Shown here: positions 58,215 to 60,473 of the stretch, piece after piece
How the letters are laid out: each line of letters opens with the position of its first letter
How positions within the stretch are numbered: the first letter of the stretch is position 1
Assembly (NCBI GenBank): GCA_016742275.1
Contig: JACVCD010000024.1
Location: forward strand, 1 to 64,000
DNA from: Gemmatimonadaceae bacterium
GTDB lineage: Bacteria > Gemmatimonadota > Gemmatimonadetes > Gemmatimonadales > Gemmatimonadaceae
Direction of reading: 5' to 3'
Length of the DNA stretch: 64,000 nt
Made by a program: the position numbers and the translations under genes
Notes under the pieces: model-generated
What the model was told of the DNA's origin: nothing
Databases searched by the model: none
What the model saw: only the letters and a program-made list of their open reading frames with translations

Positions 58215-58571
58215 TCAGCTGAGGATCAGTTCGATGCGCGCCATCTCAGCACCGTCACCCTTGCGGTGACCGGTCTTGAGAATGCGCGTGTAGCCGCCCG
58301 GACGCGTGACAAACTTCGGGCCGATTTCCTGGAACAGCTTGTCGGCCGCTTCACGCTTCTGGACATGCTTACCGGCCAGACGACGCGCATGGAGCGTGCC
58401 GGTACGGGCCTTGGTGATGAGCTTTTCGACGAACGGGCGGAGCTCCTTGGCCTTGGCCTCGGTCGTCTCGATCGCGCCCTGCTCGATGAGCGAGGTCGCG
58501 AGATTGCGGAGCAGCGCAAGACGCTGCTCACTGGTCCGCCGGAGCTGGCGGTTGGCCTTACGATGGCGCAT
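58215..58571 (-). CDS. rplQ: Ribosomal protein L17
   Basis: 50S protein of 118 residues with [20 protein letters not shown] and the conserved [20 protein letters not shown]. It follows rpoA by six bases, the classical end of the alpha operon. Confidence 0.97.
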
Positions 58572-58577
58572 GGGAGA

Positions 58578-59651
58578 TCAATCCTCGTCTTCGTCGTCGT
58601 CGGGCGCATTTTCAGCAGCGCGGCTGGGCGGGGTGCCCATGTCGAGGATACGGACACCGTCCGTGGATTCCTCGTAGCGCATACCAAAGTTGAGCCCTTC
58701 CTTCTCGAGCAGCGCGGCGATTTCCTGCAGGGACTTCTTGCCGAAGTTCTTGACCTGGAGGATCTGCGCCTCGGTCTGGCGAACCAGATCGCCGAGCGAG
58801 CGGATGTTGGAGTTCTTCAGGGAATTGACCGAACGAACCGAGAGTTCGAGATCGTCGATCGGTGTGCGGAACAGCTCGGCGAGGCGGATGGCGTCGGAGT
58901 TGGCTCCGTCACCCATCATGCCCGGCTGCGCGGACGCAGACGACCCGAAGCCCACGAAGTACTGGAAGTGGGTCTGGGCCAGTGCGGCCGCGTAGCTCAC
59001 CGCTTCCTCGGGCGACATCGTGCCGTTGGTTTCCACGGTGAGCGTGAGGCGGTCGTAGTCGGTGCGCTGACCGACGCGGGTTTCCGCGACGGTGAAGTTG
59101 GCACGACGGACCGGATTGTAGATGGCATCGATGCGCACCACGTCGACCGGAAGATTCTTGTCGGACGGATGCGAGTCGCTCTCCACGTAGCCGCGTCCCT
59201 TGTTCACGTAGAGTTCGACCGTGAAGTCGCGCTCGTCGGTGACAGTGAACAGATGATGCGACGGCTCGACGACCTTGACGCCACCGGTTGCCACGATATC
59301 CGCGGCAGTCACCGTGCCCGGGCCCGACTTGTTGATGCGGAGCACGGTCTGCTCGACATCTTCCGGAAGGGACAGGGTCAGCGTCTTGAGATTGCCGATG
59401 ATCTGATGCACGTCTTCCACGACGCCCGAGATGGTCTGGTGCTCATGCACCACGCCATCAATGCGGAACGCCCACACGGCCGAGCCACGCAGCGACGACA
59501 GGAGCAGTCGGCGCATCGCGTTGCCCAACGTGTGTCCGAAGCCGCGCTCGAGCGGCTGCAGACGGAATTCGGCCAGATTGGGATTGTCCTCGCGCTTGGT
59601 GGCTTCCACCAGCTGCGGACGGACCAGCCCGGAGAGATCGATCGTTGCCAT
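58578..59651 (-). CDS. rpoA: RNA polymerase alpha subunit
   Basis: The 357-residue protein has the N-terminal dimerisation domain (LERGFGHTLGNAMRRLLLSS, about 35-54) and the alpha C-terminal domain (ELSVRSVNSLKNSNIRSLGD with NFGKKSLQEI). The C-terminal tail is acidic (DDDEDED) and longer than usual. The ATG at 59651 gives the standard start. A 186-base gap with palindromes precedes it. Confidence 0.97.
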   Translation of the reverse strand: MATIDLSGLVRPQLVEATKREDNPNLAEFRLQPLERGFGHTLGNAMRRLLLSSLRGSAVWAFRIDGVVHEHQTISGVVEDVHQIIGNLKTLTLSLPEDVEQTVLRINKSGPGTVTAADIVATGGVKVVEPSHHLFTVTDERDFTVELYVNKGRGYVESDSHPSDKNLPVDVVRIDAIYNPVRRANFTVAETRVGQRTDYDRLTLTVETNGTMSPEEAVSYAAALAQTHFQYFVGFGSSASAQPGMMGDGANSDAIRLAELFRTPIDDLELSVRSVNSLKNSNIRSLGDLVRQTEAQILQVKNFGKKSLQEIAALLEKEGLNFGMRYEESTDGVRILDMGTPPSRAAENAPDDDEDED

Positions 59652-59678
59652 GTGTGTTTGAATCTGAAAGTGGTCTCA

Positions 59679-59694
59679 CCAATCCGGAGATTGG
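59679..59694. promoter_or_regulatory. Small hairpin in the rpoA leader
   Basis: CCAATC (59679-59684) and GATTGG (59689-59694) form a perfect 6-bp stem with loop CGGA, 27 bases upstream of the rpoA ATG. A structural role in the leader is possible. S4-mediated control is known in other alpha operons but not shown here. Confidence 0.3.
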
Positions 59695-59780
59695 CGACGC
59701 TCTACCCCGCCCCGAACGCGCGGTAGACTCGTGAGGGAGTTCGGGTCCCGACCAAACAACAGTTTTGAGTTTCGAGTGAT

Positions 59781-59808
59781 CAGTGTTGAGTACTAGTACT
59801 CAACACTG
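59781..59808. repeat. Perfect 28-base palindrome with flanking copies, between rpsD and rpoA
   Basis: A perfect palindrome centred on CTAG with half-site CAGTGTTGAGTACT. A further copy of the half-site occurs as ACTCAACACT at 59812-59821. The unit is AT-richer than the surrounding genes. It lies about 30 bases after the rpsD stop and 130 bases before rpoA on the minus strand. Similar AGTGTTGAGT/ACTCAACACT sequences are recalled as scattered intergenic repeats in several soil phyla; the family status here is unproven. Confidence 0.9.
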
Positions 59809-59837
59809 AAGACTCAACACTCATCACTGTAGTTGAC

Positions 59838-60473
59838 TTACTTCGAGTACAACTCGACGACGAGCTGTTCCTGGGCCGCGAGCGGGATCGACTGGCGCTG
59901 CGGCTTCTCGAGCACGCGACCGCTGAACGATTCCTTGTCGACGGCAATCCAGGCCAGCGACGCACCACGCGCCGCCTGCTCCATCGCGCCCTGCACAAGC
60001 ACGAGCTCACGCGAGGCCTGCTTCACGCGCACTTCTTCACCCGGACGCACCTGGTACGACGGGATGTCGAGGAGGCGACCCTTCACTTCGATGTGACGGT
60101 GACGGATGAGCTGACGCGCGGCCTTGCGGCTCGGAGCGAAGCCCATGCGGTACACGACATTGTCGAGACGGGTCTCGAGAGCGGCCAGCAGATTGTGACC
60201 GGTGATGCCGGCCTGCGTGGACACGCGCTCGAACGTGTTGCGGAACTGCTTCTCGGAGATGCCGTAGATGCGCTTGATCTTCTGCTTCTCGCGCAGCTGC
60301 TTGGCGAATTCCGACATCTTCTTGCGACGCGCCGTGGCCTGACCGTGCTGACCCGGAGCGTACGGACGACGCTCAACGGGGCACTTCTCGGTGAAGCACT
60401 TGGTGCCCTTCAGAAAGAGCTTGGCGCCCTCACGACGGCACTGACGGCAGCTGGGACCAGTGTAACGGGCCAT
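59838..60473 (-). CDS. rpsD: Ribosomal protein S4 (zinc form)
   Basis: 30S primary assembly protein of 211 residues with N-terminal CRQC, KCFTEKC (four Cys for zinc), an S4 RNA-binding domain (about 95-160, ETRLDNVVYRMGFAPSRKAARQ) and the usual C-terminus. It is part of the rpsM-rpsK-rpsD order. S4 autoregulates this operon in E. coli; no binding structure was verified. Confidence 0.97.
   Translation of the reverse strand: MARYTGPSCRQCRREGAKLFLKGTKCFTEKCPVERRPYAPGQHGQATARRKKMSEFAKQLREKQKIKRIYGISEKQFRNTFERVSTQAGITGHNLLAALETRLDNVVYRMGFAPSRKAARQLIRHRHIEVKGRLLDIPSYQVRPGEEVRVKQASRELVLVQGAMEQAARGASLAWIAVDKESFSGRVLEKPQRQSIPLAAQEQLVVELYSK

Follow-up and report, generated by a model that had tools for sequence, protein, structure and literature searches.

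The gap between rpsD and rpoA in the alpha operon of a Gemmatimonadaceae bacterium holds two unrelated parts, a heptad-repeat hairpin beside rpsD and a structured RNA beside rpoA. The reading favoured here, with moderate confidence, is that the RNA is a cis-regulatory leader of rpoA and rplQ, while the hairpin belongs to an independent, dispersed family of 3'-end elements. In the window, as the whole 64,000-nucleotide stretch under analysis is termed, both flanking genes lie on the minus strand, and their coordinates (Table 1) bear out an earlier sequence-only reading, according to which the gap (59652-59837) is enlarged to 186 bases. The same reading had described the gap as AT-richer than its surroundings, which holds for the heptad element (38.8 % GC) but not for the rpoA-side part (67.1 %; window, 62.7 %). 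The closest matches to rpoA come from Gemmatimonas and Gemmatimonadaceae genomes and are 96 % identical.

Table 1. Features of the rpsD-rpoA region, in window coordinates
Feature	Position	Strand	Remark
rpsD (ribosomal protein S4)	59838-60473	-	gene before the gap; identity read from translation
Heptad-repeat inverted repeat	59755-59834	no strand	two 40-nt arms of [CG]AGTNNN units
Perfect 30-base palindrome	59780-59809	no strand	centre of the heptad element
Further heptad pair of the right arm	59809-59821	-	the "half copy"
rpoA leader RNA	59672-59753	-	closing helix and hairpins C, B and D
Hairpin C	59735-59749	-	GGGA, loop CCCGAAC (59739-59745), TCCC
Hairpin B	59697-59732	-	loop GTTCGGG (59711-59717), all 7 bases complementary to loop C
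Hairpin D	59677-59696	-	hairpin near rpoA of the earlier reading
rpoA (RNA polymerase alpha subunit)	58578-59651	-	directly behind the leader RNA
rplQ (ribosomal protein L17)	58215-58571	-	6 nt behind rpoA; identity read from translation

The leader RNA has a conserved fold with loop-loop complementarity that is maintained by compensatory change, and it is present family-wide at a constant position next to rpoA. Its consensus, GGTCGGGACCCTAACTCCCnTACGAGCCTACCGCGCGTTAGGGGCGGGGTAGGGCGTCGCCGG...GACC, is found directly upstream of rpoA in the window and in 78 distinct sequences of relatives; the 79 aligned sequences were taken from loci located via rpoA. The consensus fold consists of hairpin C (loop CCCTAAC), hairpin B (loop GTTAGGG), hairpin D and a closing helix, the last two of which are missing from some members. 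The 6 bp hairpin previously noticed near rpoA is hairpin D, one part of this larger conserved RNA. Across the 34 pairs of the alignment, 94.6 % of cells are standard pairs; both partners vary in 23 of the 34. Not one of 500 shuffles reached these pairing and covariation values, and sliding the partners by one column lowers pairing to about 45 %. The helix between loops C and B, taken by itself, is paired in 97.6 % of cells, with compensatory changes in six of its seven pairs; in one relative (L118), loop CTCTACC stands opposite GGTAGAG. RNAalifold recovered hairpins C and B unprompted, all four leader helices are also predicted when the window sequence is folded by itself, and the fold of the window's gap is better than that of shuffles by 7 sd.

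Only some 3 nt separate hairpin C from hairpin B, which makes pairing of their loops inside one molecule geometrically doubtful. With so little room between the hairpins, geometric reasoning suggests that the loops of two mRNAs might pair with each other instead, or that the complex might be strongly bent. A nested alternative, with the loop strands paired to each other and hairpins C and B given up, was rejected as the main state, as it is on average about 9 kcal/mol worse. The kissing complex of ColE1 RNAI and RNAII resembles the leader in that it too involves two 7-nt loops whose 7 bases are all complementary, whereas the two loops of the leader are near neighbours in one mRNA.

Of 103 Gemmatimonadaceae genomes searched with a covariance model of the leader RNA (R1), 101 gave a match, whereas the 195 genomes from elsewhere in the phylum gave none. 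Both family genomes that lack a match are 88-89 % complete. The RNA occurs once per genome, except in one genome with two copies, both beside rpoA sequence, and in the searched genomes where rpoA was also located it adjoins that gene. The presence of the leader outside the family was rejected, since 24 sister-family genomes searched with permissive filters gave chance scores only (E of at least 0.16). At the ten sister-family loci read, rpsD and rpoA abut, with the stop codon of the former overlapping the start of the latter or only a few bases away from it. As the RNA is family-wide and absent from the other genomes searched, and the genes of the sister loci abut, parsimony suggests, within this phylum-only search, that the gap and the leader RNA probably arose together in Gemmatimonadaceae. 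A contig titled Candidatus Kuenenia stuttgartiensis (L063, CALQGY020000048.1) was observed to carry a Gemmatimonadaceae alpha operon (rpoA 92 % identical) and is therefore probably mis-binned.

The leader is a previously uncatalogued structured RNA, for which a search of Rfam 15 with the window and three relatives gave no match at the gathering score and, at E<=10, chance matches to other families only. Open-access literature searches, which many subscription papers lie beyond, returned no description of the leader RNA or the heptad element. The RNA is similar to the S4 (uS4) operator of the E. coli alpha operon (Rfam Alpha_RBS) in being a pseudoknot-like RNA of the alpha operon beside a start codon. 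However, the E. coli operator is situated at rpsM and leaves the alpha cistron unaffected (PMC10931766), whereas the Gemmatimonadaceae RNA is found directly before rpoA; it neither matches the Rfam model nor lies at the first cistron, rpsM, its place being between rpsD and rpoA. In E. coli, S4 represses S13, S11, S4 and L17, and the alpha cistron is said to be under independent control (PMC10931766). A further likeness is to the S4 and L17 leaders predicted by Eckert and Weinberg 2020 (PMC7247131), which are also lineage-specific, covariation-supported RNAs before alpha-operon genes. Those leaders precede rpsD, rpsM or rplQ in Bacteroidia, Clostridia, Flavobacteria, Fusobacteriales, Actino- and Proteobacteria (PMC7247131), whereas the Gemmatimonadaceae leader precedes rpoA, and Gemmatimonadota are unmentioned in the text of that paper. 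As is typical of ribosomal-protein leaders, the RNA has a covariation-backed structure, and its place is regularly ahead of a stretch of the operon that includes a ribosomal protein gene.

The leader RNA probably acts in cis on the rpoA-rplQ part of the alpha operon, where it would control the initiation of rpoA translation and also that of rplQ; because rplQ follows so closely behind rpoA, both genes would be affected. The ligand of a ribosomal-protein leader is usually a protein encoded in the operon, and by this rule the most likely partner would be an operon ribosomal protein, either L17 (encoded downstream) or S4 (upstream). The manner of initiation control is doubtful, since a Shine-Dalgarno-like motif is absent from its usual place before rpoA in 35 of the 79 members; in the shortest members, a Shine-Dalgarno-like AAGGA comes immediately after hairpin B. 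The rpoA upstream regions of loci such as L054, L060 and L066 have an intact leader yet no such motif in the usual place. Mimicry of rRNA sequence by the leader was rejected, as its matches were no better than those of shuffles in a comparison that covered E. coli 16S and 23S rRNA and a Gemmatimonas 23S locus; no rRNA was found in the assembly to which the window belongs.

Alternatively, the leader may bind no ligand and may serve as a processing or stability element (an RNase target, a ribosome stand-by site or an insulator) that merely uncouples rpoA from rpsD. Such a role would agree with the joint origin of RNA and gap, as well as with the lack of rRNA mimicry by sequence, but is considered rather unlikely. 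Ten columns are invariant and 14 nearly invariant across the family, unpaired and core bases among them, and, together with the preserved loop-loop pairing, they suggest that a specific fold is recognized.

The proposal that a regulatory hairpin of the gap sets the dosage of rpoA relative to the ribosomal proteins is probably correct for the gap, but not for the part that was named. The conserved, covarying RNA is the GC-rich segment next to rpoA, and the palindrome is absent from close relatives that keep this RNA. Judged from these sequence comparisons, the likely regulator of rpoA within the gap is the neighbouring RNA rather than the palindrome.

The palindrome, which had been reported as perfect and 28 bases long, is indeed perfect, although its length is 30 bases; no other perfect palindrome in the window is as long, the next ones measuring 22 and 16 nt. 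The 22 nt palindrome (GCGTGCGTGTCGACACGCACGC, at 61-82) is probably located within coding sequence at the start of the window. The surrounding inverted repeat spans 80 bp, begins a few bases past the rpsD stop codon and has arms that are 83 % complementary. AGTGTTGAGTACT is present in two exact copies and one with 2 mismatches (three matches against 0.42 expected), the last of which is the extra half copy described earlier. Five relatives whose rpoA is 92-96 % identical (L054, L055, L057, L205 and L206) are devoid of this element at rpsD-rpoA, with empty sites in L054, L205 and L206, while L056 carries a different heptad element in the gap. Given these close relatives without the element, the copy at rpsD-rpoA appears to be non-essential for rpoA control. 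It may be best regarded as a lineage-specific 3'-end hairpin that divides rpsD from the leader RNA; in the transcript, such a hairpin would bound the rpsD cistron, protecting it from exonucleases and separating it from the leader.

The element had been suspected of belonging to a dispersed intergenic repeat family, and it does. A search of its own genome for four [CG]AGTNNN heptads, with one mismatch allowed, yielded 85 matches, compared with 8 for the reversed pattern used as a control. These matches merge into about 30 places, of which approximately 25 were judged convincing, and their arms either face each other (ends AACAACAGT...ACTGTTGTT) or face away. At the variable C/G positions, the arms agree at 0.88 within elements and at 0.51 across elements (p=0.0005), and the arms are therefore held complementary or copied from each other. 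Classified with a simple ORF heuristic, the copies fall between convergent genes in 10 cases and between tandem genes in 15, and another 5 overlap an ORF call, while none of the 25 clear copies occurs between divergent genes; the tandem copies mostly start 5-25 nt past the upstream stop codon. The heptad element is thus a fast-changing hairpin repeat sited 3' of genes, and its position, as called by this heuristic, points to a role as a 3' hairpin. At two places on contig C15 of the same genome (L140 and L142), a GC-rich hairpin resembling a terminator has heptad arms on either side, as if these had been wrapped around it.

The perfect two-fold symmetry across 30 bp could also be taken to mark the DNA-binding site of a dimeric regulator that acts on a promoter before rpoA, but this is highly improbable. 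A consensus scan of 59500-60000 revealed neither a promoter-like nor a terminator-like site; moreover, the dispersed copies share the heptad pattern but not this palindrome, and they sit 3' of genes, never in the divergent settings just mentioned. On this context, the operator reading was rejected.

The spacer from the rpsD stop codon to the leader RNA, readable in the window and 74 relatives, is at least 40 nt long in 48 of the 75 loci. Among these long spacers, 37 fold more than 2 sd better than shuffles, and in 22 the best repeat period is 7 (4.8 expected). The heptads in the gap vary with the lineage, being, for example, ACGGTCG in L087, CCGGAAG in L086 and AGTTGAG in L132. In these three loci and in L120, L080 and L107, all from other genera, the slot is filled by inverted heptads unlike those of the window, as if refilled in each lineage. 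A GCTATTN pattern, found in the rpsD-rpoA gap of genome G035, has 283, 247 and 88 matches in three genomes of that genus, overlapping matches within one array being counted separately, with none for the reversed control; no matches were found in five genomes of two other genera. Many of the GCTATTN matches seen in G035, G127 and G144 (L243, L244, L246, L247, L249, L250 and L252) form inverted pairs.

That hairpins of other sequence recur at this slot in many relatives is one argument for regarding the palindrome itself as a partial terminator or attenuator inside the operon, which would lower rpoA expression relative to the ribosomal protein genes. Folding likewise predicts a very stable hairpin between rpsD and rpoA, which is followed on the mRNA by TGTTGTTTGG. 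Nevertheless, attenuation is an unlikely explanation, and a less likely one than a ligand-free leader: no site in the scanned region combines a GC-rich hairpin with a subsequent U run, several relatives lack a hairpin in this position altogether (14 of the 75 spacers measure 15 nt or less), and the dispersed copies with outward-pointing arms have no T-rich tail.

Among known repeats, the STRR repeats of cyanobacteria are heptanucleotide intergenic repeats. TAACTGA heptanucleotide repeats have been described in Beggiatoaceae, Cyanobacteria and Bacteroidetes (PMC4679880). The heptad elements share with both the intergenic arrays of 7-base period, the restriction to lineages and, in some cases, the location at ribosomal protein genes. 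However, in the known repeats a fixed heptamer is repeated directly, often ahead of a start codon, whereas the heptad elements have the period of 7 without a single fixed unit in direct orientation, being inverted, with variable spacers, and mostly following stop codons. The REP/BIME elements of enterobacteria are dispersed palindromic hairpins, mostly 3' of genes, and in this respect the heptad family is alike; a RAYT is usual for them, although not universal. The heptad family differs in being built of heptads and in the lack of a RAYT, as PF01797 (RAYT, Y1 transposase) was detected in none of seven genomes in which the controls were positive. On the evidence of these seven genomes, a RAYT transposase was rejected as the mover of heptad elements.

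The genus-specific heptad hairpins constitute a second unexplained pattern and prompt the question by what route such families emerge and supersede one another in the absence of an obvious transposase. As to the leader RNA, a tentative and rather doubtful extension is that Gemmatimonadaceae evolved a dedicated RNA sensor of alpha supply, whose adjacent 7-nt loops pair fully within one mRNA or between two (as an mRNA dimer), and that this sensor freed rpoA from its coupling to the ribosomal protein genes when rpsD and rpoA, which had once abutted, became separated. The family-wide structured RNA exactly before rpoA provides a concrete, testable element for separate control of alpha in another phylum.
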